Origin: a virus
IMG/VR virus record: IMGVR_UViG_3300024520_000457
Span: 1-25,528 of that record
Length of the DNA stretch: 25,528 nt
Reading direction: 5' to 3' (one strand)
A program made the translations under genes and the position numbers. The notes under the pieces were generated by a model. That model ran no database searches and had not been told where the DNA came from. It worked only from the letters and a program-made list of their open reading frames with translations. Below are positions 472 to 25,528 of the stretch, in pieces. Position 1 is the first letter of the stretch. Each line of letters starts with the position of its first letter.

Positions 472-492
472 GAAAGCCAGAATTAGAAGCTA

Positions 493-1918: not shown

Positions 1919-1922
1919 GAAA

Positions 1923-2800: not shown

Positions 2801-2805
2801 AAATT

Positions 2806-3057: not shown

Positions 3058-3075
3058 TTTATTACTTGTTAATTT

Positions 3076-3091
3076 TAAGGAGGGAAACATG
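3076..3091 (+). promoter_or_regulatory. Strong Shine-Dalgarno before the protease/scaffold gene
   Basis: AAGGAGGGAAACATG precedes the start at 3089. It is a full Shine-Dalgarno at good spacing, unlike most genes here, and it fixes the start codon. Similar sites precede 4659 (AGGAGGTAAAAAATG) and 13951 (AAAGGAGTATTTTATG). Confidence 0.8.
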
Positions 3092-4648: not shown

Positions 4649-4658
4649 GAGGTAAAAA

Positions 4659-5114: not shown

Positions 5115-5126
5115 AATTATATAAAG

Positions 5127-6176: not shown

Positions 6177-6223
6177 TTTTGAAACTTAAATAACTAATCA
6201 AGTTATTTTTAAATTGGATTAAG
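6174..6223 (+). promoter_or_regulatory. A/T-rich spacer after the capsid gene: TAnnTTTG motif and weak hairpin
   Basis: TAATTTTG (6174-6181) fits the TAnnTTTG -7 element of Bacteroidota promoters, but no good TTG lies at the usual upstream distance. It is followed by a 7 bp inverted repeat, AATAACT (6189-6195) and AGTTATT (6201-6207), loop AATCA, then three more Ts. This may be a weak attenuator that lets the capsid gene be expressed above the genes downstream. A very similar arrangement follows the tail tube gene. Confidence 0.4.
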
Positions 6224-6490
6224 ATGGAAAAGAAAAATTTTGATATACGCAAGCCCTTATGGAAAAAGATAGCTCGTGGTTCTGTTGCTTTGAAGAGGGA
6301 TTGGAGAGTTGAATGTGGTGATGTAATTCATGCGACAAAAAGTGATCTGGGAAAGTATGTTGATGAGTTTGAATTGGTAGCTGTAAAGAAGCCAAAGGCT
6401 AAGAAGAAAGTTATCAAGAAGAAAGCTCCAGCTAAGAAGAAAGCTCCAGCTAAGAAAAAAGTGACAAAACCTAAATCATTAAACAAATGA
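6224..6490 (+). CDS. Small protein with a lysine-rich repeat tail, paralogue of the next gene
   Basis: An 88-residue basic protein. Residues 1-60 form a small domain (KPLWKKIARGSVALKRDW, then GDVIHATKSDLGKYVDEFEL). The rest is a low-complexity Lys/Ala/Pro tail built of KKAPA units, like histone H1 or DNA-binding tails. An 18-base unit (AAGAAGAAAGCTCCAGCT) is repeated exactly in tandem at 6416-6433 and 6434-6451. The N-terminal domain resembles small post-capsid proteins whose core reads 'G-D-x-I ... G-x-x-V', and matches the next gene's N-terminus. The tail could bind DNA or the acidic capsid interior; this is not proven. Confidence 0.7.
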   Translation: MEKKNFDIRKPLWKKIARGSVALKRDWRVECGDVIHATKSDLGKYVDEFELVAVKKPKAKKKVIKKKAPAKKKAPAKKKVTKPKSLNK

Positions 6491-6882
6491 AAAGGACAAA
6501 AAAAGAATCTTCTAAGCCCTTATATCGAAAGATAACAAGAGGGACATTACACTTGCGGGATAAGGATAATCATAGAATAAAGCCGAAGCAAGAAATTCGA
6601 GCCACTCCTGAGGAATTGGGAAAGTGGATTGATGAGTTTGAATTGATTCGAAATGCTGATGGATCTTTGCCCAAAGGAGGGAAGAAGAAAGGGGAAAAGA
6701 AAAAAGAGAAAAAGAAAGAGGCTCCTGCTAAAATTTTTGATACTTACACTGTTGAGCATATTGAGGAGGGATGGTACAATGTATTGTCCTCTTCTGGAAA
6801 TGTTATGAATGAGAGTAAGTTGAGAGAAGCTGACGCTAAAGATTTAAAAGCTCAGTTAGAAGAGGAGACCACTGGAACATAA
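6487..6882 (+). CDS. Paralogue of the previous gene with a lysine-rich linker and extra C-terminal domain
   Basis: A 131-residue protein. Residues 11-55 align with the upstream gene: KPLYRKITRGTLHLRDKD, then IRATPEELGKWIDEFELI, against KPLWKKIARGSVALKRDW and IHATKSDLGKYVDEFELV. A Lys/Glu/Gly-rich linker (about 62-80) follows, then a second small domain (TYTVEHIEEGWYNVLSS..NVMNESKLREADAK) that the paralogue lacks. The start overlaps the previous stop by 4 bases and the stop overlaps the next start by 1 (TAATG). This looks like tandem duplication and divergence of a minor head protein; its role is unknown. It links the head block directly to the carbohydrate module. Confidence 0.7.
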   Translation: MKRTKKESSKPLYRKITRGTLHLRDKDNHRIKPKQEIRATPEELGKWIDEFELIRNADGSLPKGGKKKGEKKKEKKKEAPAKIFDTYTVEHIEEGWYNVLSSSGNVMNESKLREADAKDLKAQLEEETTGT

Positions 6883-7571
6883 TGAAAGTCCATTGGACAG
6901 TTCCCCAAATGTGGAAGGGTGGAGAATGTTGGATCATTGGAGGTGGGGCAAGCATGCCCAGACAGTTCGGGATTCCTGAAGATGCTATTCAAAATGTGGA
7001 GAGCAAGCAGGACCCCATTTCCATATATTCAGAGTATTTGAAGCCTTTACATGATCGGCATATCATTGGAGCTAATATTGCTTTTATGTTAGGCGATTGG
7101 GTGGATGTCTTGTATTTTTGTGATAGAAATTTTTTTAGAGTGCATCAAGATCAGATACAAGAGTTTCCTAATATCAAAGCAACATGTGTTTCAACTTTGA
7201 CTCAGGCTTTTCCTTGCCATAGAATTAAGCGATTGAAAAGGGATATGGCTTATGGTCTAACTCCAAAAAGAGATGCCATAAGATGGAACGGGAATAGCGG
7301 AGCAGCGGCAATTAACTTTGCTGCACATACTGGAGTAAAAAGAATTTTATTACTAGGATTTGATATGCATGATCAGCATGGAAGAAGTCATTGGCATGAG
7401 GGATTTCCTCAGTATACCAAAAAGACGGATCCTCATAATTACAAAAGATTTCTGAGAGGCTTTCCAGCGATTGCATTGGAGGCTAAGAAAAGAGGGATTG
7501 AAATATTGAATGTCAATCCAGATAGCAAGTTAGGTGTTTTTGAAAAAGTAAAATTGAAAGATGTAATATGA
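6882..7571 (+). CDS. MptE/DUF115-like protein, putative sugar or nucleotide transferase
   Basis: The 229-residue protein has the pattern of MptE-like/DUF115 Rossmann-type proteins: CWIIGGGASM (16-25), an aspartate-rich DVLYFCDRNFF (75-85), and GNSGAAAINFAAHTGVKRIL followed by LLGFDMHDQHG (137-167). In this family the 'GGG' loop and 'N-S-G-x-x-A ... G-F-D' segment form the nucleotide site. Relatives include 6-hydroxymethylpterin diphosphokinase and flagellin or sialic acid modification proteins; phage members are often unassigned. First gene of an eight-gene coupled module, with its start inside the stop of the head-block gene. I favour a glycan role from context, not from specific residues. 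Confidence 0.7.
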   Translation: MKVHWTVPQMWKGGECWIIGGGASMPRQFGIPEDAIQNVESKQDPISIYSEYLKPLHDRHIIGANIAFMLGDWVDVLYFCDRNFFRVHQDQIQEFPNIKATCVSTLTQAFPCHRIKRLKRDMAYGLTPKRDAIRWNGNSGAAAINFAAHTGVKRILLLGFDMHDQHGRSHWHEGFPQYTKKTDPHNYKRFLRGFPAIALEAKKRGIEILNVNPDSKLGVFEKVKLKDVI

Positions 7572-8338
7572 TTATACATCAAGCATATACTTCTATTCCG
7601 ATTAGTAAATTCAAGTTCCGTTCCTTGTTTGGGATGGATGAGTGTGGAGATATTAATTCGCCGTTATTAGTTTTTGGGATGTATCGAAAAGAGGATGTGC
7701 GAATGGTGCTAAGACATAGCCGTGGAAGAAAGACAGTTATTGTATGGTTGGGAAATGATTCTACAAAAGTTGATCTGAGTAAAGTGCGATCTGAAAATAT
7801 AATTCATACGACTTGGTTGCCTAGAGTAAAAGAGTATTTGAAATTGAATGGAGATATTGATTGCATCCTCCTTAAATTCCCCGCTCATGAGAAACCAAAT
7901 CCAATGGTATTAGGTCCTAGAGTTTACGCTTATTTACAAAAGGGCAAACCAAAATATCATGGAAGTGATACTGTACTGGATTTAGATATGTCCTATCCTT
8001 TATTGGTTGGAGATCATAGTGTGCCAAGACAAGAGTGGTGGAATGGGATAGGTGATAAGTGGTACCGTAAATCATTCATCGGATTATTCTTGAGTGAGTA
8101 TACAGGAGGAGGATGTGGAATTGTTGAAATGGGATTGAGGGGAAGGAAGGTTATTACAAATGTTTTAAATCTCCCTCATTGTATCCCATGGAAAACGAAA
8201 GAGGATGTGGAGGCTATTATTGAAAGAGAAGCAGAGCATATCGGCATTCAAGATACTTATTTGGCGGAAGAGGTTTATGCTTCTCTAGCGAAAGGAAAAG
8301 ATTTGGAGCATTTTGATTTGGAAAGGATGGCTGCATGA
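7568..8338 (+). CDS. GT-B-like glycosyltransferase
   Basis: The 256-residue protein shows a GT-B C-terminal pattern: VYAYLQKGKPKYHGSDTV (120-137), then SFIGLFLSEYTGGGCGIVEM (169-188), then GLRGRKVITN (189-198). This follows the usual 'E-x-x-G-x-x-(v/i)-x-E-x-x-x-x-G-(r/k)-x-(v/i)' donor-binding region of glycosyltransferase families 1/4. The N-terminal half is shorter than in full GT-B enzymes (usually 350 or more residues), so it may be a reduced or atypical member. It overlaps its neighbours by 4 bases on both sides. It would transfer an activated sugar to a glycan or protein acceptor; donor and acceptor cannot be told from sequence. Confidence 0.6.
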   Translation: MIIHQAYTSIPISKFKFRSLFGMDECGDINSPLLVFGMYRKEDVRMVLRHSRGRKTVIVWLGNDSTKVDLSKVRSENIIHTTWLPRVKEYLKLNGDIDCILLKFPAHEKPNPMVLGPRVYAYLQKGKPKYHGSDTVLDLDMSYPLLVGDHSVPRQEWWNGIGDKWYRKSFIGLFLSEYTGGGCGIVEMGLRGRKVITNVLNLPHCIPWKTKEDVEAIIEREAEHIGIQDTYLAEEVYASLAKGKDLEHFDLERMAA

Positions 8339-8997
8339 AAAAGGTATTAGTTTTATCCAGAGAACACATCATACCACTTCTTCATTTTAGAAGGGCAGTG
8401 AGAGTGCTGGGCATAAAGGATGTTAAGTTTCATTATTGTTTTTTCTTTGATCCGATTGAATGCCGGACAATTATTAATAATTATGATTTAGTAATAAGTG
8501 TTCATTATCCTCATATCCTTTCAGCGGACCTTGTTGATAATATCAGATGTATAAACATTCACCCCGGTTATAATCCTCACAATAAAGGATGGTTTCCGCA
8601 TATATTTTCAATGGCAAATAAAGATAAGATTGGAGTTACTATTCATGAGATGAGTGCTCAGCCAGATGCAGGTCCAATTATTTGCAGGGAAGAAGTTAAG
8701 GCAGCATGCAATGATACTTCTAATGAGGTATATAATCGAATCCTGAATAAGGAATTTGAAATGATGCATAAATGGTTAAAAAGAATAATTGACTGGGAGT
8801 ATGAATTGCAGGAACCTACGGCAGGGAATTATAACAGCAAATCTGATTTTGATGATTTGTGTAAATTGGATTTAAATCATGTGGGAAGTTTTGCAGATCA
8901 TTTGGATATTCTGAAAGCCCTATCCCATGATGGAATGAAGAATGCTTATATTGAAAAGGACGGAGAAAAATATTACTTAGAATTGAAGTTTTTATGA
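8335..8997 (+). CDS. Sugar N-formyltransferase, dTDP-4-amino-4,6-dideoxyhexose type
   Basis: The 220-residue protein matches the formyltransferase (Formyl_trans_N) fold that transfers formyl from N10-formyltetrahydrofolate to an amino group. The stretch CINIHPGYNPHNKGWFPHIF (72-91) then IGVTIHEM (99-106) and PDAGPII (110-116) carries the catalytic triad Asn74, His76, Asp111. 'NIHPGYNPxNxGWFP' and 'IGVTIHEM' are closer to sugar N-formyltransferases (VioF/FdtF-type, making Qui4NFo or Qui3NFo) than to methionyl-tRNA formyltransferase, which has a 'RG' loop and a C-terminal OB domain that is absent here. It directly precedes an aminotransferase gene that could supply the amino sugar. Confidence 0.82.
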   Translation: MKKVLVLSREHIIPLLHFRRAVRVLGIKDVKFHYCFFFDPIECRTIINNYDLVISVHYPHILSADLVDNIRCINIHPGYNPHNKGWFPHIFSMANKDKIGVTIHEMSAQPDAGPIICREEVKAACNDTSNEVYNRILNKEFEMMHKWLKRIIDWEYELQEPTAGNYNSKSDFDDLCKLDLNHVGSFADHLDILKALSHDGMKNAYIEKDGEKYYLELKFL

Positions 8998-9614
8998 TGG
9001 CAAAGGATGAATATATAATAACAGAATTGTTTGAGGAGAAGGTAGCTGAGTATACTGGATCTCCTTATGCTATTGCAGTTGATAATTGCAGCAATGCATT
9101 ATTCTTATGCCTCATGTATGTAGGGATTAAAGGAAAGACAATTCATATTCCATCATGCACATATATGTCGGTTCCTTGTGCTGTTATTAATGCAGGGGGA
9201 ATAGTTGATTTTACGGATAGACCATTTCAAGGTATTTATTATCTGAGTCCTACTAAAGTGATTGACGCGGCTTTAAGATTTACGTGGGATATGTATATTG
9301 AAAAGAGTTTTATGTGCCTCAGCTTTACAGGACCTTATAAGCATTTGAAATTAGGAAAGGGTGGGATGATTTTGACAGATAATAAAGATGCTTATGAGTG
9401 GTTTAAGAAAGCAAGGAACTCAGGGAGGAATGAGTGCTCGTATATGGATGATGATTTTCAGATGACTGGGTGGAACTTTTATATGCCTCCTGAAACAGCA
9501 GCTAGAGGGGTTCAATTAATGAGAGGGTTTTATTCTCCAGATGGATCAGCAAAATTTATGACTGATGCGAAAGGAACTTATCCTGACCTATCAAAATTTA
9601 AAGTATATCAATGA
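8994..9614 (+). CDS. Short DegT/DnrJ/EryC1-type sugar aminotransferase
   Basis: The 206-residue protein follows the N-terminal two-thirds of the PLP-dependent DegT/DnrJ/EryC1/StrS sugar aminotransferases: FEEKVAEYTGSPYAIAVDNC (13-32), HIPSCTYMSVPCAVINAGG (51-69), VIDAALRF with Asp91 (the PLP-nitrogen partner position), LSFTGPYKHLKLGKGG with Lys116 as the likely Schiff-base lysine, then TGWNFYMPPETAARGVQL. The usual G-E-G-G reads G-K-G-G, and one extra residue lies between Ser-Phe and Lys. Full-length enzymes have about 370 residues; the C-terminal domain is missing and the next gene starts straight away with a 4-base overlap. It is either a compact phage form or a decayed enzyme. With the formyltransferase it would make an N-formylamino sugar. 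Confidence 0.7.
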   Translation: MMAKDEYIITELFEEKVAEYTGSPYAIAVDNCSNALFLCLMYVGIKGKTIHIPSCTYMSVPCAVINAGGIVDFTDRPFQGIYYLSPTKVIDAALRFTWDMYIEKSFMCLSFTGPYKHLKLGKGGMILTDNKDAYEWFKKARNSGRNECSYMDDDFQMTGWNFYMPPETAARGVQLMRGFYSPDGSAKFMTDAKGTYPDLSKFKVYQ

Positions 9615-10255
9615 TAAATCAAAAACCTATATTGATTGCAGGATGTCCAAGATCAGGAACAACGATGTTGGCTGGATTACTTCATTACCATGGAGTATGG
9701 GTGGGAAGAAGTAGAACGACAATGTATCCGGGTTCTAATTCTAATTTTGGAAGTGAGAATCTTGATATAAAGGAGATCATGAAACAAGAGGGCGATCTTA
9801 TTGGATATAAACATAAGAATTGGAGTGCTGATCTGCCTATAAAACCACAGACAGATACAGCTGTTTTGAAAAAGGCAATTGAAGCATTTGTCCCTCATGA
9901 TCAACCATGGTTAGTAAAGACTTCTTGGACTTTAATTTTTTATGAGTTTTGGAAGGAAGCTTATCCTGATGCATATTGGATTTTCCCATATAGGGAGGAG
10001 CAGAGTATTTTGGATAGTATGGATAGACACCCGGGCATGGCAAAACGTTTTGATAAAGTGAAGAGAGATTATGTGACGGCTTTAATGGAAAGACAAATTG
10101 ATGTGCGATTAGCTGTTAGAAAACATTTTCAAGTGGATGTAAAAAAAGTATCACAAATGAATCTTTCCCAGATTACTTGGTTGTTTGATTTTTTGGATAT
10201 GAAAGTGAGTAAGGAAGTTATATATGATTGGATTGAACCTGAATTAATGTCATGA
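9611..10255 (+). CDS. Sulfotransferase (PAPS-dependent), first of two
   Basis: The 214-residue protein has a 5'-phosphosulfate-binding loop at the N-terminus, PILIAGCPRSGTTMLAGLL (6-24), with GCPRSGTT at 11-18. The 3'-phosphate-binding pattern Arg-x7-Ser is seen at Arg128 and Ser136 in YWIFPYREEQSILDS. Both are typical of sulfotransferases that move sulfate from PAPS to a hydroxyl or amino group of a glycan. The protein is compact (families usually have 250-300 residues), with no transmembrane anchor. It is coupled by 4-base overlaps to the aminotransferase gene and the next glycosyltransferase. A general P-loop kinase is less likely because the loop is 'PRSGTT' rather than 'GKT'. Confidence 0.8.
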   Translation: MINQKPILIAGCPRSGTTMLAGLLHYHGVWVGRSRTTMYPGSNSNFGSENLDIKEIMKQEGDLIGYKHKNWSADLPIKPQTDTAVLKKAIEAFVPHDQPWLVKTSWTLIFYEFWKEAYPDAYWIFPYREEQSILDSMDRHPGMAKRFDKVKRDYVTALMERQIDVRLAVRKHFQVDVKKVSQMNLSQITWLFDFLDMKVSKEVIYDWIEPELMS

Positions 10256-10923
10256 ACATAGTATGTCTATATTGGATACCTCATGATGGTCCTACTTTTA
10301 GGGGACGAGATTTTTCTATACAGGATGTGGAGCGATTAGCTGATAATGTAGCTAGGAATATGGACTGTCCATATAATTTCTATGTTTTGACTAATTATGT
10401 AGGTGATGATTTAGGATTTGATACAATTCCTTTGCAGCATAATTTTCCGGGCTGGTGGAGTAAGATGGAGTTGCATCGTCCTGATCTTCCAGAGGGTAGA
10501 ACATTGTATCTGGATTTGGATACTCATATTGTAGGGAATCTTCAACCAATCTTGGATTACTCAGGAGATTTGGTAATGTTTAAATCTATATTCTGGACAG
10601 TCAAGCCTCAAATAGTAAGAAGGTATCAAGCTGCTACAATGTTATTTGATTCTGGCACTCCTGTAATGACTGAGGTCTGGGACAGATTCATTTCTAATCC
10701 GAATAGATGGATGAAGGAGTATAGAAGTGATCAAGATGTGATGGGTGATTGGATTCCAGATCAGAAGACATTTCCAAAAGCATGGATGATGAAGCTAGGA
10801 GATTGTTTAAGAATAAAAGCATTACCAAATGAGTGTATTATTGTGACAGGACAGCCAAGGAATGTTTCATTTAGGGATACGGATAAATTTCCGTGGCATG
10901 GATTTAATCAGATAGCATCATGA
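10252..10923 (+). CDS. GT-A glycosyltransferase with a DxD motif, first of two
   Basis: The 223-residue protein has the features of a GT-A glycosyltransferase: an N-terminal NIVCLYWIPHDGP, a 'Y-N-F-Y-V-L-T-N' strand (41-48) typical of families related to GT8, WWSKMELH, and the metal-binding DLD at Asp88/Asp90 in LYLDLDTHIVGNL. The C-terminal part has SDQDVMGDW (the 'D-Q' near the acceptor site) and FPWHGF. It has no signal or membrane segment, so it would act in the cytoplasm, on a nucleotide-activated sugar. Its neighbour downstream has the same layout, so the two probably add two successive sugars or the same sugar to different acceptors. Confidence 0.75.
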   Translation: MNIVCLYWIPHDGPTFRGRDFSIQDVERLADNVARNMDCPYNFYVLTNYVGDDLGFDTIPLQHNFPGWWSKMELHRPDLPEGRTLYLDLDTHIVGNLQPILDYSGDLVMFKSIFWTVKPQIVRRYQAATMLFDSGTPVMTEVWDRFISNPNRWMKEYRSDQDVMGDWIPDQKTFPKAWMMKLGDCLRIKALPNECIIVTGQPRNVSFRDTDKFPWHGFNQIAS

Positions 10924-11672
10924 AACCAGTATATGTAATTTGTTTTTATTGGCAAGGAGAAAGATGGCAGGAGCAGGGAATGAACTATGACAAGGTAGAG
11001 GATCCCGGTTTTAGAAAGCATCTAGCCAGAACGGGGCCTCTGACTCATGAAATGGTTTGCCGGTATGTTGATAATTTATATTTTGGAGTCAAAAAATGGG
11101 CAGTCCATCCTTTCAAGTTTATCTGTTTCACTAATGATGATTTGGATGTGGATGAGAGAATAGAGATTAGGGAATTTCAATCAGTGGTTAAGGAGGGAGT
11201 GATGCCTAGAATGTTTATGTATAGCAAAGCTGCTGGATTGTTTGGACATCAGGTGCTCTGTTTAGATATTGATGTGGTCATTACAGGCTCTCTAAGGGAC
11301 TTAATGAACTATGATGGACTCTATTGTACCCGGACGAGTTTTGCCGGTCCAGACAAAGGGAAATTGGATGGAGATATACAGAGCTTCCAAGCTGGGAAAG
11401 AAATGGAAGATATATTTTGGAAGCCACTGATTGATGATCCTGAGAAGGCTAAAGAAATATCACAAGGACGAGAACGATTCTGGGTACGACATGTGATGAA
11501 TGGGAAAGCTGATTTGTGGAATGATGTTGCCCCTGATCAAGTGCTGAGTTACAAAAGACATGTTATGAAAAATAATAAGGAGTTGCCGGAGAATGCTAGA
11601 ATCATTAGTTGTCACGGTCATCCTAGACCTCATATAATAAACGAACAATGGAGAAAAGACAATTGGGAATAG
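10920..11672 (+). CDS. GT-A glycosyltransferase with a DxD motif, second of two
   Basis: The 250-residue protein is a relative of the preceding one: VYVICFYWQGERW (4-16), VCRYVDNLYFGVKKW (46-60), FKFICFTND (65-73), MYSKAAGLFG (100-109), then the DxD at Asp116/Asp118 in VLCLDIDVVITGSL. The downstream APDQVLSY and the final CHGHPRPH (the usual 'F-H-G-x-P-(k/r)-P' close to the end of such enzymes) support the call. It overlaps the next gene by 25 bases, the longest overlap in the module. It would act in the cytoplasm, on an activated sugar; donor and acceptor are not evident. Confidence 0.75.
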   Translation: MKPVYVICFYWQGERWQEQGMNYDKVEDPGFRKHLARTGPLTHEMVCRYVDNLYFGVKKWAVHPFKFICFTNDDLDVDERIEIREFQSVVKEGVMPRMFMYSKAAGLFGHQVLCLDIDVVITGSLRDLMNYDGLYCTRTSFAGPDKGKLDGDIQSFQAGKEMEDIFWKPLIDDPEKAKEISQGRERFWVRHVMNGKADLWNDVAPDQVLSYKRHVMKNNKELPENARIISCHGHPRPHIINEQWRKDNWE

Positions 11673-12352
11673 AAAAGTCGCCAATCCTAATCACGGGATG
11701 CGCACGATCAGGTACTAGCATGATGGCTGGTATCATTGATATATGTGGAGGGTTTGGCGGAATGACTGCCGGACCAAATAAGCATAATGCTAAAGGAATG
11801 TTTGAGAATCTCAGGATTAAGATGGAAGCAGATAAACCATACTTAAGTTCATTGGGAGTTGACCCGAAAGGACAAGGACCATTACCTGATACTAAGAAAT
11901 TGAGAATTCCAACTGATTGGAAAGAGACGGTTGATAATATCATTCTCCAGCAGGGATATAAAGAAGGAGCTTGGTATTATAAGGGAGCAAGGACTTGTTT
12001 GTATTGGCCGGTATGGGCTTATGCTTATCCGAATGCTAAATGGATTATAGTGAGGAGGAGGAGTTCGGACATTGCAGACTCTTGTTTGAAAACTGCTTTC
12101 ATGAATAAGTATCAGACATTTGATGAGTGGATTAAGTGGGTGAATCAGCATGAAAAGAAATGGACGGAAATGTTTGTGGCAGGATTAAATTGCAAACAGA
12201 TATGGCCGGAAAGAATTATAAGAGGAAATTATGAGCAAGTACATGAAATGATTGAGTGGCTAGGCCTAGAATGGAGGCCTAAAGAAGTTATGAATTTTAT
12301 TGAACCCAAGCTCTGGAAAGCAAGAGTGAAAGAAGGAATCATAAAAAATTAA
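11648..12352 (+). CDS. Sulfotransferase (PAPS-dependent), second of two
   Basis: The 234-residue protein has the PAPS loop SPILITGCARSGTSMMAGII (11-30), with GCARSGTS at 17-24, followed by the Arg-x7-Ser pattern (Arg137, Ser145) in VRRRSSDIADSC. It resembles the sulfotransferase 1.4 kb upstream in layout (loop near residue 15, 'YPxA-W-I' before the arginine) but has diverged, so the two may sulfate different positions. An N-x-x-M-F-E-N segment (47-54) just after the loop is also seen in other phage members. It ends the carbohydrate module; the next gene, a connector, starts 5 bases later. The first ATG is used because it lies in the coupled overlap. Confidence 0.8.
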   Translation: MEKRQLGIEKSPILITGCARSGTSMMAGIIDICGGFGGMTAGPNKHNAKGMFENLRIKMEADKPYLSSLGVDPKGQGPLPDTKKLRIPTDWKETVDNIILQQGYKEGAWYYKGARTCLYWPVWAYAYPNAKWIIVRRRSSDIADSCLKTAFMNKYQTFDEWIKWVNQHEKKWTEMFVAGLNCKQIWPERIIRGNYEQVHEMIEWLGLEWRPKEVMNFIEPKLWKARVKEGIIKN

Positions 12353-12357
12353 TTGAT

Positions 12358-12750
12358 ATGGCAAATAGAACAACATTTGGAGAAGTACAAAAGATTTCGG
12401 ATACGGCATTGGCGGATGCAGATATAACTAGTGTTATTGATTTTGCTAATCGTATTGTGACAGATACAGTAGGGTCAGAGAGTTTGAGTGCAGCAGTCTT
12501 GAAAGATATTGAGACTTGGTTAACTGCTCATCTGATAGCTATTGGAAAAGAGCGACAACCCAATGCAGAGAAGGTAGGAGATATTTGGCTGACATTTGAT
12601 AAGAATGAAAGGGTTGGATTGGGTTCTACCAAATATGGACAGATGGTTTTATTTTTGGATACATCTGGGAAGTTCCAAGCTGGGACAATGAAGAAGGCTA
12701 GGATTAGAGCCATGAAACAAATTGACACCACTAGATCATTTTCAGGATGA
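12358..12750 (+). CDS. Head-tail connector (adaptor) protein
   Basis: The 130-residue protein has the helical pattern of head-tail adaptors of the HK97 gp6/DUF4054 sort: ITSVIDFANRIVTDTV (about 24-39), then LSAAVLKDIETWLTAHLIAI (about 43-62), then KVGDIWLTFD, GLGSTKYGQMVLFLDTSGKF. The 'LS-x-x-x-L-x-x-I-E-x-W-L-x-A-H-L ... TxYGQ' order is characteristic. It would form a ring beneath the portal. It is followed by stopper, neck and terminator genes in the usual order. The head-tail genes resume here after the eight-gene carbohydrate module, with no gap beyond 5 bases. Confidence 0.75.
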   Translation: MANRTTFGEVQKISDTALADADITSVIDFANRIVTDTVGSESLSAAVLKDIETWLTAHLIAIGKERQPNAEKVGDIWLTFDKNERVGLGSTKYGQMVLFLDTSGKFQAGTMKKARIRAMKQIDTTRSFSG

Positions 12751-13112
12751 GCATTGAAGCATTTATAAAAAGACTTTGCAAGAGTGATACCGTTGTGTAT
12801 TGGGCATCTCCTTCTGAGGAATCGGATGGATCTTTCGGCTTTGATGCAGGAGCAGAGATTACTTGTTTTTGGAAAGAAGAAACAGAAGTATTTACAGATG
12901 CTAATGGAAAGGAGATGATTTCAAATGCGATGGTATATGTGGAACAGGATTTGGATGAACAAGGGATGATCTTCCACGGAGCTTTAACTGATTTGACTGC
13001 AGGACAAATAGCAGACCCAAAGACAGTTCAGGCTGCTTATGAGATTAAGAAATTTATCAAATTGGAATCTATGTATCAAACGGGAGAATATAAGAGGACA
13101 GCAATGATATAA
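12747..13112 (+). CDS. Head closure/stopper-like protein
   Basis: The 121-residue protein fits head closure (stopper) proteins by position and pattern: a DTVVYWASPSEESDGSFGFD start, ITCFWKEETEVFTDANGKEM (38-57), where the 'C-x-W' and 'D-x-x-G' steps correspond to the beta-barrel of stoppers, and a long strand-rich middle (SNAMVYVEQDLDEQGMIF). There is no catalytic motif. It overlaps the connector by 4 bases and is followed 2 bases later by the neck gene. Order connector, stopper, neck, terminator, tail tube is the classical siphovirus order, so the call depends mostly on context. Confidence 0.6.
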   Translation: MSIEAFIKRLCKSDTVVYWASPSEESDGSFGFDAGAEITCFWKEETEVFTDANGKEMISNAMVYVEQDLDEQGMIFHGALTDLTAGQIADPKTVQAAYEIKKFIKLESMYQTGEYKRTAMI

Positions 13113-13114
13113 TT

Positions 13115-13501
13115 ATGGCACGAGCGAAATCGGGATTAACAGGAATTGAAAATGTGATGCGGAATCTGAATAAGGAAGCTGCTAAGATTAAGATAAAGTC
13201 AATGGGAGCTTTAACAGATGCAGCCACAATGATTCGTAGAGATATGGACGCAACCCCACCAAAGATTCCTATTGATACAGGAACTTTAAGAGCTAGCTGG
13301 ACAACTGTTCCTGGTCATGGAGTTGCTGGGTTTTTTATGATCATGAGATTCACTGCAGGATATGCCATATATGTTCATGAGATGGAGGGTGCTGATATCA
13401 ATTGGAATCGTCCGGGTAGTGGAGGGAAGTTTTTTGAGAGTGCTTTAGTGAGGAACCAAGAAAATATTTTATTGATTTTTAAAAGAGATTTATCAATATG
13501 A
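13115..13501 (+). CDS. HK97 gp10-like neck protein
   Basis: The 128-residue protein matches the HK97 gp10-like family: a helical N-terminus (about 8-50) with AATMIRRDMDATPP, then PIDTGTLRASWTTVPG ('P-x-DTG-x-L-R-x-S-W', a family signature), FTAGYAIYVHEM ('Y-A-x-Y-V-H-E') and PGSGGKFFESAL near the end. Such proteins sit at the head-tail interface. The length is typical (usually 110-160). Only 2 bases separate it from the stopper gene, and it overlaps the next gene by 4. Confidence 0.85.
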   Translation: MARAKSGLTGIENVMRNLNKEAAKIKIKSMGALTDAATMIRRDMDATPPKIPIDTGTLRASWTTVPGHGVAGFFMIMRFTAGYAIYVHEMEGADINWNRPGSGGKFFESALVRNQENILLIFKRDLSI

Positions 13502-13902
13502 GAAGTGCAGCGAGAGATATAGCAACAATATTGGATGGAGTCAGCTCATTGGGATTGACTAAAGGGACAGATTTATTTCATGCTAGGATGAATGATGATC
13601 CAGATAATCGTGTGACAGTATTTGATAATCCGGGTGGTCCTCCTTTAATTGCTCAGAGGAAAGTAGATAGTGGGTATCATTACTCATCAGTCTCTGTGCA
13701 GGTAAGGAATATAAAGTATAATGATGGATACGCGGTCGCTCAAGCTATTGTAGAGTACTTACATGCTCAAAGTGGAGATGTGGTTGCTGGTACATTATAT
13801 ACACTAATAAGAGCTTTAAACAGTCCACAATTGCTTCATTATGATAAAAATGATCGGCCAATATTTGTAGTTAACTTTGAAGTGCAGAGGAGGAATAATT
13901 AA
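13498..13902 (+). CDS. Tail terminator (minor capsid/tail completion) protein
   Basis: The 134-residue protein fits tail terminators: a helix with IATILDGVSSLGLTKGTDLF, then RVTVFDNPGGPPLIAQRKVD, SVSVQVRNIKYNDGYAVAQA and IVEYLHAQSG, and a C-terminal FVVNFEVQRRNN. The 'V-x-D-x-G-G' and 'v-Q-v-R' pieces and the final 'vNFE-v-x-R' are typical of the minor capsid/terminator group. It would close the tail at the head-proximal end. It comes last in the connector set and is followed by the tail tube gene. Confidence 0.7.
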   Translation: MRSAARDIATILDGVSSLGLTKGTDLFHARMNDDPDNRVTVFDNPGGPPLIAQRKVDSGYHYSSVSVQVRNIKYNDGYAVAQAIVEYLHAQSGDVVAGTLYTLIRALNSPQLLHYDKNDRPIFVVNFEVQRRNN

Positions 13903-13950
13903 TATGTTAATTTTATATATATGTTTAATTAAACAAGAAAGGAGTATTTT
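13903..13950 (+). promoter_or_regulatory. Spacer before the tail tube gene: palindrome and Shine-Dalgarno
   Basis: This A/T-rich gap holds a perfect 12-base palindrome, GTTTAATTAAAC (13923-13934), and the strong ribosome site AAAGGAG 7 bases before the start at 13951. The palindrome might be an operator or a chance A/T-rich sequence. I see no promoter pair. Confidence 0.4.
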
Positions 13951-14400
13951 ATGGCAACAGTAGCTAAAACTGGTATTGGAGCGTACTTCCAGAGATGGAA
14001 TACAGATGTGGGGACAACCACAGGATTCTGGGAAACGCTTGCGGAGGTCACCCACATTGGATGGGGTGGTATTTCGCGAAATGTAGTAGAGACATTCAAA
14101 CTCAATAATGCAGATGATTATGTAAATAAACTGCAAGGGATTTTGAATGCTGGTTCCATCACATTGACTATCAATTATAGTCAAGCTGAATTCGTTAATT
14201 TAAAAGCGGATGCAGAGAACAGGGGAAACATTGAATATCAAATTGTATTCCCAGATGGAGAAGGATTAGAGTTTGCAGGCTTCGTTGTGGAGCTTCCAAT
14301 TGACTTTGGGTCTGATGATGTTATGGCAGGAGATGTTGTGATTGAAATAGATGGTAAGCCTGATTTTGTAACAACAGCAAATGTCACTACTCCAGCTTAA
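13951..14400 (+). CDS. Major tail tube protein
   Basis: The 149-residue protein has the profile of siphovirus tail tube proteins: a beta-rich chain with ETLAEVTHIGWGGISRNVVE, TFKLNNADDYVNKLQGILNA, GSITLTINYSQAEF, then NIEYQIVFPDGEGLEFAGFV (about 92-111), and PIDFGSDDVMAGDVVIEIDG near the end. The 'F-x-G-F-V ... P-x-x-x-G-x-x-D ... f-x-I-x-G' arrangement is typical of lambda-like tail tubes. The gene has a strong Shine-Dalgarno and is followed by a weak hairpin, fitting high expression. Position between terminator and tape measure chaperones agrees. Confidence 0.82.
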   Translation: MATVAKTGIGAYFQRWNTDVGTTTGFWETLAEVTHIGWGGISRNVVETFKLNNADDYVNKLQGILNAGSITLTINYSQAEFVNLKADAENRGNIEYQIVFPDGEGLEFAGFVVELPIDFGSDDVMAGDVVIEIDGKPDFVTTANVTTPA

Positions 14401-14454
14401 AATGAAAGTCAACTAATCATGTTGATATTTTTGAACCTTTAAATTATTAATCAA
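14401..14454 (+). terminator. A/T-rich hairpin and TAnnTTTG motif after the tail tube gene
   Basis: An inverted repeat, GTCAAC (14408-14413) and GTTGAT (14421-14426), with a 7-base loop (one G-T pair) is followed by five Ts (14428-14432). TATTTTTG (14426-14433) fits the -7 consensus TAnnTTTG, without a convincing -33 element. The same layout follows the capsid gene, suggesting partial attenuation after both abundant virion proteins. Confidence 0.4.
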
Positions 14455-14796
14455 ATGATAGAGTACATTAATTACAAAGGAAAGAGTCATCCAGTGAGAA
14501 TTTCTTACATAGCATTGAATGGATTTAAGAAAGAGACAGGTAAGTCTTTTGATCAGATTGGAGATGCAATGAAAAAAGGTGATGGGATGGATTTAGAAGT
14601 CTATGAGCCGTTATTATTTTACGGACTGAAAGCGGGACATGCTGCTGAGGAGATTGAGTTTACTTTTGAACGAGATCAGATGGAAGCTGTTTTGGATGAA
14701 TGCTTGTGGGAGTTTATTGCTATGATTCCCAAGTTTATGGAAGCTGCTGGATTGGGGGAGACGGGGAACCGGGCACAGAGAAGAAAGAAGAACTAG
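14455..14796 (+). CDS. Tail assembly chaperone, upstream frame (gpG-like)
   Basis: The 113-residue protein fits the first of the two overlapping tail assembly chaperones of siphoviruses: SYIALNGFKKETGKSFDQIG (17-36), then LEVYEPLLFYGLKAGHAAEE (47-66), FERDQMEAVLDECLWEF (71-87) and a basic Arg/Lys end (RAQRRKKN). These helical proteins coat the tape measure before tube polymerisation. The next frame overlaps it by 97 bases in the -1 frame and lacks its own ribosome site, as in lambda G/T, so a longer fusion product probably exists. No Shine-Dalgarno is seen before the start; the leader is A/T-rich. Confidence 0.8.
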   Translation: MIEYINYKGKSHPVRISYIALNGFKKETGKSFDQIGDAMKKGDGMDLEVYEPLLFYGLKAGHAAEEIEFTFERDQMEAVLDECLWEFIAMIPKFMEAAGLGETGNRAQRRKKN

Positions 14797-15230
14797 GTAA
14801 GAGCGTTGCCAGTGATTACGCTATTGCTTTGTCACGGTTCGGGATGTCGCTGCAAGCTTTTTTGTTGATAACACCAAAAGAGTTTTATGATGCATTAAAG
14901 GACAAAGGAGATTATGACAAATTGGAAGCAGAAACAATTCTTATACCGATCTGTGAAGCGATCAGATTGGATGCCTTTCATCAGGTCAATATTCAACTTC
15001 CAAGAGGTAAAAAATATAGAAGTGCTCGACAATTATTTACTTTCTATTGGGATAAGGTTAGGAATCCTAAGAAGCCTCAGACTAAAAAGGAGATGAAAAA
15101 GGTCATGAAATCTATTGCGGGAGCTGGAGAATCGAATGTAAAGAGTAAAATGGAATGGCCTGAGTGGCTGACTCGTAAGAAAAGGAAATTTAGAAAACCA
15201 AAAAAATTAAGAAGAGATGACAGGAGTTAA
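14700..15230 (+). CDS. Tail assembly chaperone, downstream frame (gpT-like), probable -1 frameshift product
   Basis: This frame lies at -1 relative to the gene before it. The first ATG (14700) lies deep inside that gene without a ribosome site, so the true product is likely a fusion made by -1 slippage near the end of the upstream gene. Candidate slip sites are G_GGG at 14763-14766 and A_AAG at 14784-14787, both before its TAG (14794-14796). The useful part from about 14787 to 15230 encodes roughly 147 residues (DYAIALSRFGMSLQAFLLIT, EAIRLDAFHQVNIQLPRGK, basic end), giving a fusion of about 258 residues. The stop overlaps the tape measure start by 14 bases. Confidence 0.7.
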   Translation: MLVGVYCYDSQVYGSCWIGGDGEPGTEKKEELGKSVASDYAIALSRFGMSLQAFLLITPKEFYDALKDKGDYDKLEAETILIPICEAIRLDAFHQVNIQLPRGKKYRSARQLFTFYWDKVRNPKKPQTKKEMKKVMKSIAGAGESNVKSKMEWPEWLTRKKRKFRKPKKLRRDDRS

Positions 15231-17463
15231 AAACATAGGACATCTTGAAGCAACGTTAGGACTCAATGATGCTTTATTCACGGCAGGGTTAAGTAAAGCA
15301 AGAGCATCCATGATGGCTGCTGGAACTTCTATGAAGCGGGTAGGACGTTCGATGACTACCACAGTCTCATTGCCCTTGGTACTTATAGGAGGAGCAGCTG
15401 TAAAGATGGCAGCGAGTTTTGAAAAGTCCATGAGTAAGATTGAAGGACAGGTTGGAATAGCTGCTGATAAAGTCCAAGCAATGAAAAAGGATGTGCTAGC
15501 CTTAGCAGGTCCTACAGCTCGTTCTCCGCAAGAATTAGCGGATGCCTTATTCTTTGTTACATCTGCTGGATTGAGAGGAGCAGACGCGATGGAAGTGCTG
15601 CGAAAATCAGCAAGAGGAGCTGCTGCAGGATTTGGAGAAACTAAAGTGGTGGCTGATCTGGTCACGAGTGCTACAAATGCTTATGGGATTTCTAATCTAA
15701 GTGCTGCACAGGCGATGGATACTTTAGCGGCGGCTGTGCGAGAGGGTAAGAGTGAAGCACTTGATATTGCAGATTCAATGGGACAGGTATTACCTATTGC
15801 TAGTAATCTTGGAGTATCATTCAATGAAGTAGGAGCTTCAATCGCCTCCATGTCCAGAACGGGAACAGTTGCTAAGACAGCTGTGATTCAATTAAGACAA
15901 ATATTGTTTAGCATATTAAAACCTTCCCAGATGTCAGAAGATGCTTTCAAAGCAATGGATACAAGCTCTGCAAAGCTTCGGGATGTCTTGCGGGGAGAGA
16001 ATGGTTTATTAAATGTCTTATCTTTTTTGAAAGATGAGCTGAATGCAGATGACCAAGCAATGGCAAAAGCTTTCCCAAATGTCCGCGCACTATCTGGAGC
16101 GCTAGACATAATGGGGGCAAATGCTGAAGAGAATATTGGGATATTTAAAAGGATGCGTGATAATACAGGAGATGCGGACGCTGCATTTGATGCTGCTGCT
16201 AAGACTCTTGATCATAAATTCAATGCAGCGATGGCTGAGTTTAAAACCGCTATGATTGAGATTGGTACTTTATTGATTCCGTTTGTCACTAATCTGGTGA
16301 GTGGATTCAAAGAAGTGGTGATGTGGTTTAAAGGATTATCAACATGGGTTAAGAAAACGATTCTTGTCTTTAGTGGATTCCTTGCAATAGCTGGTCCAGT
16401 CTTGATAGTGCTAGGATCAATGGCTACTCTGATAGCTGCAATTAGTTGGCCTGTATTAGCTGTGGTGGCTGCTATTGCTACTCTTGGAACTGCGATTGTC
16501 TGGGTGGCTGATAATTGGAAAGCAATCACGGAGAGGTTAAGTGATTGGGGGTGGTGGAGAAATATGCTAATTAGCATGGTCCAATTTTTAATAAAGTGGA
16601 ATCCAGTTTCATTATTGATTGAGGGATACAATGCTCTTGCAAGTGTAATCCCTGCGATCAATGAAATCGTTAATCCATTCGAAGCTATGTCTGGAGCACT
16701 TGGATTATTGAAGAATGAGACTAAGGAGTTTAAGCATGAGTTTACTTCTTTGGGACAAGCTATAACAAATACATTGAGTTCTATCTCTGGTGTGCTGCCA
16801 ACTGCTGGAGCAGGACCAGAACCATCTGAAGGGAGAAAAGGAGTTCAAAGAGATTTGATTCCTGTTCCAAAAATAGATACAATTGCAGATATAATGGATA
16901 GGGTTGCTGCTAAAATAAAAGAAGTTCGAGAGGAGACAGCTAAGATGGGGAAAGAAGTAATCAATATGAGCAGTATTATTACAGGGGCATTGATCGGAGC
17001 ATTCACTATGTTTGGGAATACAATCTCTGACATCCTAACTGGAGATGCAGGTGCCCAGCAATTCTTTACAGGGATTATAATGGTGGTTGCTGATTTCTTA
17101 ACAGCTCTGGGACAAGCCATGATAGCAGCCGGAGTTGCTTCAATAGCTTTCAAGGATTTATTCGTAAGTGGTATTGGAGCTGTCATAGCAGGAGGGGCAT
17201 TGATTGCTACGGCCGCTGTTGTTAGAGGATTATTACAAAACGCCTCTTCTGGAATGCAGGGAATGCGGTCAGGAGGATTTGTGACTGAAGGAGGAATGTT
17301 CCAATTACATAAGGATGAGAAAGTAGCATTGCCTGCTGGATCTGCTGTGATGTCTCAGAGAGCAAGCAGAATGGGAAATGGAGGAGGAGAGATTACAACA
17401 AGCATAGGAATGAGGAAATTGATTATTGAGTTGAATAGAGAACAACAAAGATTGGGAAGGTAA
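15217..17463 (+). CDS. Tail tape measure protein, TP901 type
   Basis: The 748-residue protein matches TP901-1-like tape measures: an N-terminal part beginning LEATLGLNDALFTAGLSKAR (10-29), VSLPLVLIGGAAVKMAASFE, then ALAGPTARSPQELADALFFV and TSAGLRGADAMEVLRKSARG (the PhageMin_Tail domain, about 80-340), a hydrophobic stretch near 380-433 (VLIVLGSMATLIAAISWPVL) and another near 617-672. Such hydrophobic segments may insert in the membrane during DNA entry. At about 0.15 nm per residue, tail length would be near 110 nm (inference). The C-terminus is helical and basic (MRKLIIELNREQQRLGR). ATG 15217 overlaps the chaperone gene by 14 bases. Confidence 0.9.
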   Translation: MTGVKNIGHLEATLGLNDALFTAGLSKARASMMAAGTSMKRVGRSMTTTVSLPLVLIGGAAVKMAASFEKSMSKIEGQVGIAADKVQAMKKDVLALAGPTARSPQELADALFFVTSAGLRGADAMEVLRKSARGAAAGFGETKVVADLVTSATNAYGISNLSAAQAMDTLAAAVREGKSEALDIADSMGQVLPIASNLGVSFNEVGASIASMSRTGTVAKTAVIQLRQILFSILKPSQMSEDAFKAMDTSSAKLRDVLRGENGLLNVLSFLKDELNADDQAMAKAFPNVRALSGALDIMGANAEENIGIFKRMRDNTGDADAAFDAAAKTLDHKFNAAMAEFKTAMIEIGTLLIPFVTNLVSGFKEVVMWFKGLSTWVKKTILVFSGFLAIAGPVLIVLGSMATLIAAISWPVLAVVAAIATLGTAIVWVADNWKAITERLSDWGWWRNMLISMVQFLIKWNPVSLLIEGYNALASVIPAINEIVNPFEAMSGALGLLKNETKEFKHEFTSLGQAITNTLSSISGVLPTAGAGPEPSEGRKGVQRDLIPVPKIDTIADIMDRVAAKIKEVREETAKMGKEVINMSSIITGALIGAFTMFGNTISDILTGDAGAQQFFTGIIMVVADFLTALGQAMIAAGVASIAFKDLFVSGIGAVIAGGALIATAAVVRGLLQNASSGMQGMRSGGFVTEGGMFQLHKDEKVALPAGSAVMSQRASRMGNGGGEITTSIGMRKLIIELNREQQRLGR

Positions 17464-23843: not shown

Positions 23844-23858
23844 CTAGTCAATCAGATC

Positions 23859-23886
23859 AATAGGGCTATTTTGCGATAGCCCTATT
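23859..23886 (+). terminator. Hairpin terminator ending the late operon
   Basis: A perfect 11 bp stem, AATAGGGCTAT (23859-23869) and ATAGCCCTATT (23876-23886), with a 6-base loop TTTGCG. The T run is short (ATTTCAT), so it is weak by that measure, but the stem is the strongest inverted repeat near the end of the structural genes. It follows the last long gene by 15 bases. Confidence 0.7.
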
Positions 23887-24355
23887 TCATTGGAGGGAGT
23901 CACCCTGCATAATCCTATCAATCAAGGCATAAGTAGCTTAAACGAGCTTAAAATGAGTTTGAAAAATATTTTTGTTTTTAGGGTAAATTATTTAAAAAAA
24001 CACTTGTTATTTAAAAAAATAGGACTATCTTTATATTGTCATTGAGACACATATCCAAAGTTCTTTACTTACTGAAATTCAAATCCGACCGATAAAAAGG
24101 GAATAGGTTCCCTCCTGAGATTCGGAGATCATCTCTCTCAGCGACAGGAAAAAAGAAAGAAATCCGGCAGGAAAGTATTTTAGTTTGAGACTGATTTTTC
24201 CCAGAATAAAAAATTTGTTGAGAATAACAAAAGGAAAAATGAATATGGAAGGAATTAGTCCTTATATAGAGCGATGCTATCCATATTCGCAACCACAATT
24301 AAATTTTAAAATGATGAAAAATAAAAAACAAAAATCAACACTAAATATTAAGACG
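23887..24355 (+). other. Non-coding stretch between late genes and the small-gene array
   Basis: No gene is supported here apart from a possible upstream extension of the next gene. It contains a palindrome AAAAATATTTTT (23962-23973), a promoter candidate at 24004-24033, and in the likely transcript two hairpins: AGGGAA/TTCCCT (24098-24113, loop TAGG) and CTGAGA/TCTCAG (24115-24120 and 24136-24141) with an inner GAGATCATCTC palindrome. The first leader thus also seems structured, but I see no clear relation to the two 91-base repeats further right. Confidence 0.55.
24004..24033 (+). promoter_or_regulatory. Candidate Bacteroidota promoter for the small-gene array
   Basis: TTG (24004-24006), 19 bases, then TATCTTTA (24026-24033). 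This is one base off the TTG-N17-23-TAnnTTTG pattern of Bacteroidota main sigma promoters. It comes after the terminator and before the small genes, giving a transcript start near 24040 and a leader of about 270-320 bases. No other pair in the gap is as good. Confidence 0.45.
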
Positions 24356-24655
24356 ATGACAACACAAGAAATAAAAGTTCCTGATTCTGATTTTTATTCA
24401 TTTTCAGACGAAGACAAAAAAGTACATGAAGTTATTGGCTTGACTTGGAAGCATGAAGGTTCCGCAGGTCCATTATACGTAGTTTTTAAAGCTGAGGAAT
24501 ATGATTCCTTTTGGGAGCGCACAATACAAGTTGCTCGCAATTATCGTGATTCCGATCAAGAAAAACATGGTGGTGGTTTTTATGCTGAATGGTTTACTTT
24601 AGGACAAGCACATAAGATTGCCAAAAAATTAAACGTTGAAGTTGAAACGGTATGA
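24356..24655 (+). CDS. Small hypothetical protein, 99 aa
   Basis: I do not recognise this 99-residue protein. It starts MTTQEIKVPDSDFYSFSDED and has GLTWKHEGSAGPLYVVFKAE, FWERTIQVARNYRDSD and AEWFTLGQAHKIAKKLNVEV, looking like a small alpha/beta domain. I chose ATG 24356 because it follows AAATATTAAGACG, close to the AAATTTTAARACG leader before the genes at 24749 and 25085. An in-frame ATG at 24314 has an equally good leader (AAATTTTAAAATG), which would add 14 residues (MKNKKQKSTLNIKT). The frame stays open back to 24185 only because the leaders happen to lack stops. The stop overlaps the next start (ATGA). Confidence 0.6.
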   Translation: MTTQEIKVPDSDFYSFSDEDKKVHEVIGLTWKHEGSAGPLYVVFKAEEYDSFWERTIQVARNYRDSDQEKHGGGFYAEWFTLGQAHKIAKKLNVEVETV

Positions 24656-24744
24656 AACGATTACAAATCTTACTCGGAATACTTGTTGCACTATACATAG
24701 TGTCAACCCAATTTGAAAATATTATTTTAACCATTAAATTTTAA
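24652..24744 (+). CDS. 30-residue membrane microprotein
   Basis: Start ATG 24652 overlaps the previous TGA (ATGA), and the stop TAA (24742-24744) lies 4 bases before the next start. The 30 residues include one hydrophobic segment (LQILLGILVALYIVSTQF, about 4-21) after a basic start (MKR), then a short tail. Coupling on one side and close packing on the other suggest a real coding sequence; the length and single membrane segment are typical of phage microproteins. The end also supplies the A/T-rich leader of the next gene. Function unknown. Confidence 0.5.
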   Translation: MKRLQILLGILVALYIVSTQFENIILTIKF

Positions 24745-24748
24745 GACG

Positions 24749-24916
24749 ATGAAAACTATCAAATTAGATTTAACAGAAAAAGAAGCCAATGCTTTATTAC
24801 AAGCAGTAAGGTTTCTTGCTGATGATGCTCACGATAAAAATCAAAATACGAAAGAGGCTGTAATGGAGAACCTTGATCTAAAAATTTCAGGAGCGATTGA
24901 AAGAAAAATACGATAA
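24749..24916 (+). CDS. Small helical protein, 55 aa
   Basis: A 55-residue protein beginning MKTIKLDLTEKEANALLQAV and ending SGAIERKIR. The 'L-T-E-x-E-A-x-x-L-L' start is common in small Bacteroidota phage and plasmid proteins and also opens the gene at 25085 (LTEKELAVMKAF). It is predicted as two helices, with no membrane segment. The start is preceded by AAATTTTAAGACG, the leader shared by the array. A hairpin terminator follows 28 bases after the stop. Confidence 0.65.
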   Translation: MKTIKLDLTEKEANALLQAVRFLADDAHDKNQNTKEAVMENLDLKISGAIERKIR

Positions 24917-24944
24917 ATTTACGGCATTGAAAGATGTTAAGGAA

Positions 24945-24985
24945 AAGGAGGGTGAGTATTTGGCTACTCAATGCTCTCCTTTTTT
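24945..24985 (+). terminator. Hairpin terminator after the 55 aa gene
   Basis: Outer stem AAGGAG (24945-24950) and CTCCTT (24976-24981), inner stem TGAGTA (24953-24958) and TACTCA (24965-24970), followed by T to 24985. A good Rho-independent terminator, or an attenuator, just before the first copy of the 91-base repeat. Confidence 0.7.
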
Positions 24986-24989
24986 GATC

Positions 24990-25080
24990 TCCCTTGCCTC
25001 GGCGGGACTTGGTAATAAGCCAAGTCGGCGGTTCAATTCCTGCTTATAGGGACTAAATAAATTTTGAAACTAAATTTTAA
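24990..25080 (+). repeat. 91-base structured repeat, copy 1 (leader of the 25085 gene)
   Basis: Identical to 25438-25528 except C/T at 25000 and 25003. Possible folding: closing stem TCCCT (24990-24994) with AGGGA (25048-25052); a 7 bp stem GACTTGG (25006-25012) and CCAAGTC (25020-25026) with loop TAATAAG; the loop's ATAAG (25015-25019) pairs with CTTAT (25043-25047), a pseudoknot; and GGTTCAATTCC (25030-25040), which equals the tRNA T-arm/B-box consensus. An A/T-rich leader, AAATTTTGAAACTAAATTTTAA, then leads to ATG 25085. It is not a full tRNA (about 63 bases, no proper D-arm). Confidence 0.85.
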
Positions 25081-25084
25081 AACG

Positions 25085-25408
25085 ATGATAAATTTAACAG
25101 AAAAAGAATTAGCAGTGATGAAAGCATTTGCCGATAATGAATACACTGCAATGGAGGGAATGTACAATGATCCCAGAATTAAAAGCAGTCAATGGATGTT
25201 CACAATCAAAGACTATTCAGAATTGAGTGATAGTTCTTTTCCAGGTGTGGTTGGGTCTTTAGTTAAGAAAGGATATGTATTTACGGATACTGAAGGTGAT
25301 AAAAATATGGGAATGAAAGTACAAGATACTTGGACAATGGGAATGACTGATAAAGGATTTGATGCTTTACAAGAATCAGGCTTTGAAATTATAATCCAAA
25401 AAGATTAA
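25085..25408 (+). CDS. Probable winged-helix DNA-binding protein, 107 aa
   Basis: The 107-residue protein reads like a small winged helix-turn-helix domain: a first helix LTEKELAVMKAFADNEYTAM (4-23), then WMFTIKDYSELSDSSFPGVV and GSLVKKGYVFTD (the recognition helix and start of the wing, about 40-71), and a C-terminal TWTMGMTDKGFDALQESGF ('L-T-x-x-G-x-x-A-L' as in MarR/PadR-like domains). It could be a phage regulator. I chose ATG 25085 rather than the earlier ATG at 25064 because the latter lies inside the shared leader and would merely translate AAATTTTAAAACG. It is flanked by the two 91-base repeats. Confidence 0.65.
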   Translation: MINLTEKELAVMKAFADNEYTAMEGMYNDPRIKSSQWMFTIKDYSELSDSSFPGVVGSLVKKGYVFTDTEGDKNMGMKVQDTWTMGMTDKGFDALQESGFEIIIQKD

Positions 25409-25414
25409 AACTTC

Positions 25415-25434
25415 GGGAGTCTTAGTTGACTCCC
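25415..25434 (+). terminator. Hairpin after the winged-helix gene
   Basis: GGGAGTC (25415-25421) and GACTCCC (25428-25434) form a perfect 7 bp stem with loop TTAGTT. There is no T run after it (ACATCCC), so it may act as an RNA end or processing signal rather than a classical terminator. It takes the same place before repeat copy 2 as the terminator before copy 1. Confidence 0.55.
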
Positions 25435-25437
25435 ACA

Positions 25438-25528
25438 TCCCTTGCCTTGGTGGGACTTGGTAATAAGCCAAGTCGGCGGTTCAATTCCTGCTTATAGGGA
25501 CTAAATAAATTTTGAAACTAAATTTTAA
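25438..25528 (+). repeat. 91-base structured repeat, copy 2 (runs to the window end)
   Basis: Same sequence as 24990-25080 with T at 25448 and 25451 in place of C. Stem GACTTGG (25454-25460) and CCAAGTC (25468-25474) and the loop-to-CTTAT pseudoknot are retained; the two changes lie outside those helices. The copy ends at the window edge inside the A/T-rich leader, so another start codon is expected within a few bases downstream. The next cassette is not visible. Confidence 0.85.

Follow-up and report, generated by a model that had tools for sequence, protein, structure and literature searches.

A repeated phage leader with a predicted tRNA-like RNA and a start-associated sequence before unrelated small genes

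Start-associated leaders and the repeated unit

In the cluster K mycobacteriophages, a short repeat, the start-associated sequence (SAS), is found at the start codons of many unrelated non-structural genes, and about half of these sequences carry a longer upstream repeat (ESAS) with dyad symmetry. The latter consists of 17-bp imperfect inverted repeats, judged by the authors unlikely to form RNA hairpins (PMC3203893). By layout, this appears to be the closest system to the locus analyzed here, in which a repeat also occurs at the starts of unrelated genes: the motif TAARACGATG at six starts and a 99-nt unit before two unrelated genes. On direct reading, however, the phage element contains neither the cluster K sequence GGGATAGGAGCCC nor the 17-bp inverted repeats; instead, an RNA resembling a tRNA and bearing a T-loop is predicted upstream, and only three copies were seen. 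Since hairpins were doubted by the SAS authors and the upstream part looks tRNA-like here, the element was grouped as a variant among the start-associated phage leaders. No description of such phage leaders was found in the openly accessible literature.

The window, that is, the whole stretch of 25,528 nt analyzed (IMG/VR record IMGVR_UViG_3300024520_000457), contains two near-identical copies of the element (24990-25080 and 25438-25528; 89/91 bases, 98%) flanking a 107-codon gene, just as an earlier note on this DNA had claimed, and a repeat search within the 25.5-kb record found no third copy. When the IMG/VR viral contigs were scanned with strict and relaxed patterns of the element, the sole match to the full element outside the window was in contig 3300024520_003937 (17,839 nt; hereafter G001, with positions given as L017). 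This third copy is identical to copy 1 over 99 of 99 nt, from T24990, where the closing stem TCCCT begins, to the base following the start codon (ATG+A, 25088), and the genes behind copy 1 (107 aa) and copy 3 (124 aa) are unrelated. Copy 1 thus occupies 24990-25088 on the plus strand, and these edges, together with the unrelated downstream genes, indicate that the unit is a structured RNA plus an A/T leader and a start codon, not a duplicated gene. The length of 91 bases given earlier holds for the comparison of copies 1 and 2 but not for the true unit, because copy 2 only appears to be that long where the contig stops. The claim of a reused 5' element was strengthened by copy 3, by unit edges coinciding with an RNA stem and a start codon, and by the predicted tRNA-like fold; a further copy before an unrelated gene also argues against the single recent duplication of one gene and against the absence of other copies, both of which the earlier note had listed as damaging. 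In the INPHARED phages, the element matched nothing beyond a 26-nt chance match and neither cassette gene had a match; the T-arm plus leader pattern was not found in the GTDB genomes.

Copy 2 (25438-25528, plus strand) is cut off at the contig end and, when aligned with copy 1, shows two base differences, one in a loop and one changing a G-C pair to G.U. Past the second mismatch (25451), the two copies agree at every one of the 77 nt that remain, the last being base 25528. This looks like a k=77 assembly-graph node, a typical k-mer size, and such a contig end makes the cut-off position uninformative on where the repeat truly ends. A false duplication of copy 2 by the assembler would explain both the exact stop and the 77 identical nucleotides. 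It would account for nothing else, as copy 2 is preceded by a hairpin of its own and differs from the other copies at two bases, and copy 3 lies on a separate contig behind yet another upstream sequence; an artefact is hardly credible and was rejected as the main explanation. Nevertheless, as no base distinguishes copy 1 from copy 3 across the 99 nt, a short-read assembly could have swapped the genes behind them, and the pairing of gene to copy could still be mis-joined.

Upstream of the element, copy 1 diverges at once, the bases just before TCCCT being GATC in this copy versus CACA and CAAA in copies 2 and 3, which have a similar CTCCCA stretch in common. The same 99 nt precede two different genes and follow a different sequence in each of the three copies, as would be expected of an exchange site at the DNA level, where recombination, homologous or site-specific, would swap small genes through their identical leaders and the RNA fold would be incidental. 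This explanation is quite improbable, since the attC-like core RYYYAAC/GTTRRRY is absent from the 99-nt unit on direct reading, no recombinase was recognised beside the array among the proteins scanned, and the edges match RNA and start-codon features.

G001 is likely, though not proven, to be the early-gene half of the same phage as the window. Window positions 15-16881 are matched at 99.9% identity by a contig from sample 3300024518, a number close to that of the G001 sample (3300024520); the tetranucleotide correlation between window and G001 is 0.72, compared with 0.58 between the two halves of the window and 0.64 for a capsid relative; and the same start motif is found in co-directional small genes of both. 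A protein scan of G001 detected early-type genes (SNF2-type helicase, primase, DNA polymerase and processivity factor), and at L017:4280-9897 a cluster resembling those for 7-deazaguanine DNA modification, with GTP cyclohydrolase I, PTPS/QueD, a QueE-like protein, QueC and a TGT/DpdA-like protein. G001 also contains two 148-nt copies of another sequence (L017:2460-2606 and 3358-3504), about 78% identical. The nearest capsid relative was found in a Spirochaetota MAG contig (GTDB), which was considered too uncertain for naming a host. Between the capsid and tail genes of the window (6882-12352), an unusual location for sugar-modifying-type genes, ORFs resembling glycosyltransferase, formyltransferase, aminotransferase and sulfotransferase genes were recognised by eye; 9611-10255 and 11648-12352, with GCPRSGTT/GCARSGTS motifs, are examples.

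The small-gene block and its start-associated sequence

The 99-nt unit is made up of two parts, a tRNA-like predicted RNA of about 63 nt and a 35-nt A/T-rich leader. The latter, ending in TAARACGATG, is the common leader that had been noted before the start codon. In the window and G001 together, TAARACGATG was observed seven times against 0.12 expected. Six of the seven occurrences mark gene starts: the final 1.2 kb of the window holds three of these, and the other three lie in G001, within 2.9 kb of the end that carries the element; late genes do not have the motif. TAARACGATG is the start-associated sequence of the small-gene block. Before the 107-aa gene it takes the form CTAAATTTTAAAACGATG (25070-25087, plus strand). 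A motif search located it without the tRNA-like part at 24339-24358, for the gene at 24356, and at 24732-24751, for the gene at 24749, both on the plus strand. When the leader 18-mer CTAAATTTTAARACGATG was scanned alone over 2.9 million viral contigs, it was found beyond the window only in G001 and in contig 3300025732_000155 (G2). The stretch of about 450 bp that separates the small-gene block from the last late-type gene (23844-24300) contains no clear gene and may hold the promoter of the block.

As had been described, each of the two copies in the window follows a hairpin. Directly upstream of copy 1 and after the gene at 24749-24916, a long terminator-like stem with a TTTTTT tail lies at 24940-24985 (plus strand, -19.7 kcal/mol); directly upstream of copy 2, a 7-bp stem, GGGAGTC/GACTCCC, lies at 25414-25435 (plus strand, -13.9 kcal/mol), lacks a T-run and is terminator-like on the minus strand only. 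Hairpins that separate the cassettes in this way, and repeated structured leaders in an early-type block, would fit a cis-acting antiterminator or regulatory RNA, either HK022 put-like or a novel riboswitch, in which the cassette is element-gene-hairpin and the nascent element lets RNA polymerase pass the next terminator. Nonetheless, the hairpin before copy 2 has no T-run, the T-loop motif described below is left unexplained, and no family matched in an Rfam library that includes the known riboswitches, so that this alternative is improbable. Upstream of the second hairpin, a promoter-like site (TTTACA-18-TATAAT, 11/12, by consensus match; 25366-25395, plus strand) would also allow independent transcription of the copy 2 cassette. 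The intervening 107-aa small gene (MINLTEKE...; 25085-25408, plus strand) has a distant relative that another phage (L020) carries within a large tRNA array. A structure model of its protein was of low confidence and too weak for use.

Predicted fold and tests against tRNA

The structured part of copy 1 (24990-25052, plus strand) is predicted to form a tRNA-like cloverleaf with a closing stem TCCCT/AGGGA, a D-like hairpin, a central hairpin of 7-8 bp and a T-like arm. Over 24990-25054, the minimum free energy and centroid structures agree on this four-way junction at -24.7 kcal/mol. Its stability relative to shuffled sequences is mild (z = -1.9 to -2.2), 5 to 13 of 200 shuffles folding as well. 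The T-arm motif GGTTCAATTCC was read directly at 25030-25040 (plus strand) and holds the textbook T-loop UUCAAUU; in the window plus G001, GGTTCRAWTCC was found four times against about 0.1 expected. The central stem is GACTTGG/CCAAGTC, with ATAAG in its loop (25017-25021, plus strand), for which direct reading suggests a possible pseudoknot with CTTAT at 25043-25047. All of the parts named earlier, including this complementarity, are thus present. TCCCT and the ATAAG loop are jointly complementary to the continuous 10-nt strand CTTATAGGGA. By base composition, the chance of the ATAAG/CTTAT pairing is about 0.6% (p about 0.006, for one of several pairings inspected), and the putative pseudoknot competes with part of the T-stem.

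The plant-virus 3' tRNA-like structures of the TYMV type build their acceptor arm through a pseudoknot, with one continuous 3' strand, and stack it on the T-arm. A similar pseudoknotted acceptor arm stacked on the T-arm may form in the modelled phage element, which differs from the TYMV type in lying 5' of genes in a DNA phage, in lacking a CCA end and in having no sequence or Rfam match.

Among the three copies, only two differences occur in total. One lies in the D-like loop, consistent with the claim that both fall outside the helices, but the other changes G-C to G.U within a fourth predicted helix, which resembles a D-arm; no change affects both sides of a stem. A covariance model built from the three copies detected no diverged homologue above noise in the 315 kb of DNA searched.

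With respect to canonical tRNA, ARAGORN called no tRNA gene in the window, and the tRNA model RF00005 gave no match to the element even at E<=10, although all 14 control genomes scored with it. Searches of Rfam 15, covering riboswitches, T-box, viral TLS and ribozymes, yielded none at the gathering score and only chance matches up to E 5. Given this lack of a match, the riboswitch-like sensor suggested earlier did not hold up for any known kind, and a known riboswitch was rejected as the main explanation. The element has a T-loop, a cloverleaf-like layout and a position before ORFs in common with the canonical phage tRNA genes found between small ORFs. Unlike these, it is repeated together with a translation leader, its closing stem has 5 bp instead of the 7 bp of an acceptor, its T-like stem contains a bulge or wobble where a tRNA has 5 regular bp (although the 7-nt T-loop itself conforms), and its anticodon-position loop, UAAUAAG, lacks U33.

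Other tRNA-like RNAs and the proposed processing

A second, unrelated tRNA-like element was detected in G001 on the minus strand (L017:17178-17263), 0.6 kb beyond copy 3. Its acceptor forms 6 of 7 pairs, its T-arm has 7 bp, and the model that it matches best is tRNA-Sec (26.5 bits, E 0.46); the element ends just before the leader AACTAAAAACTAAGACGATG and a small gene. In G2, the leader 18-mer likewise stands behind an element with an acceptor (AGTCAAG/CTTGGCT) and a T-arm, and two further such elements precede genes, one of which scores as tRNA in Rfam. These three noncanonical RNAs (L018:8730-8802, 9077-9145 and 17188-17274) have a 7-bp acceptor and a 5-bp T-arm, and in one of them a single long hairpin replaces the D and anticodon arms. 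ARAGORN called no tRNA in the G2 locus scanned, and a reversed-sequence control gave no such acceptor plus T-arm sites. The earlier idea of a tRNA mimic is thus backed by an independent element before the same type of leader in G001 and by similar RNAs before leader-bearing genes in other phages, but not by an ARAGORN or RF00005 call for the repeated element itself. The same G2 phage carries a Group I intron at L019:14165-14396 (Rfam, 81.6 bits). Three T-arm pattern matches (L036, L040 and L043) were set aside, their surroundings not being tRNA-like by eye.

Additionally, several phage contigs were found to share a family of tRNA-like elements in which the ends are constant (AGTCAGG...GGTTCGAATCC..CCTGACT), the middle varies greatly and the overall length is 80-158 nt: L039:2654-2733 and 2812-2969, L045:218-297 and 681-806, and L051:2301-2423 and 2554-2675 (minus). 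At least two are present per locus, one of them directly before AAATAAAACGATG of the same gene; some are read by ARAGORN only as intron-bearing tRNAs, and one that was searched in INPHARED had no match.

About half of the T-arm plus leader matches in IMG/VR are ordinary tRNAs by ARAGORN, which makes a tRNA remnant that gained or lost function the main rival explanation. The element would then be a decayed or noncanonical tRNA gene between phage genes, its copies recent duplicates of remnant plus leader with no role beyond that of a translation start leader. Phage tRNA genes often directly precede small genes, the 107-aa gene has its relative among arrayed tRNA genes, and near-identical copies are what recent duplicates would look like. 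Such a remnant is nevertheless somewhat unlikely, given an element without any tRNA score, unit edges that coincide with a stem and a start codon, stems intact in all copies, and the presence in G001 of a second tRNA-like element ahead of a leader of the same type.

Processing of a tRNA mimic was favoured on the grounds of copy 3 before a non-homologous gene, the agreement of minimum free energy and centroid on a cloverleaf, the excess of the T-loop motif, the independent element in G001 and the leader context in G2. As a possible explanation, we tentatively prefer a leader module that the phage reuses on the 5' side of genes in its small-gene block, in effect an extended start-associated sequence with a tRNA mimic that would be cut by tRNA enzymes. 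From the copies, unit edges, start motif, T-loop and predicted fold, we infer that the structured part would fold in the cell as a tRNA mimic within the transcript, be cut and influence expression. The closing stem would supply the acceptor-like helix, which might be lengthened by the ATAAG/CTTAT pseudoknot and stack on the T-arm. Cleavage between cistrons would be carried out by tRNA-processing enzymes of the host: RNase P would act at the 5' edge, possibly together with a 3' tRNA nuclease. After the cut, the upstream message would retain its 3' hairpin, and the downstream message would begin with a short unstructured A/U leader suited to Shine-Dalgarno-free initiation. Reported substrates of RNase P include the phage M3 and C4 RNAs, pseudoknotted tRNA-like structures from viruses, and some mRNAs, polycistronic mRNA among them (PMC11143913). 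M3 RNA and the C4 RNA of P1/P7 are, like the putative substrate described here, phage RNAs other than tRNAs, but they are separate small RNAs and not a repeated leader before protein genes (PMC11143913).

More broadly, some phages might employ tRNA mimics that do not decode, with a pseudoknotted acceptor arm in the present case, as interchangeable 5' leaders that host tRNA enzymes cut to yield single-gene messages with a short start leader, and the tRNA-like RNAs of other phage contigs, in which the middle is unusual, might reflect the same practice; this wider proposal is unlikely as it stands.

The repeated leader, as read from its sequence, is suggestive of a reusable 5' control or RNA-processing module. 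Should RNase P cut this leader, or should the leader be read as a tRNA mimic, it would represent tRNA punctuation of phage messages. It would then be a portable 5' module joining RNA processing to a Shine-Dalgarno-free start, and annotation pipelines would be missing a class of phage tRNA-like RNAs other than tRNAs.
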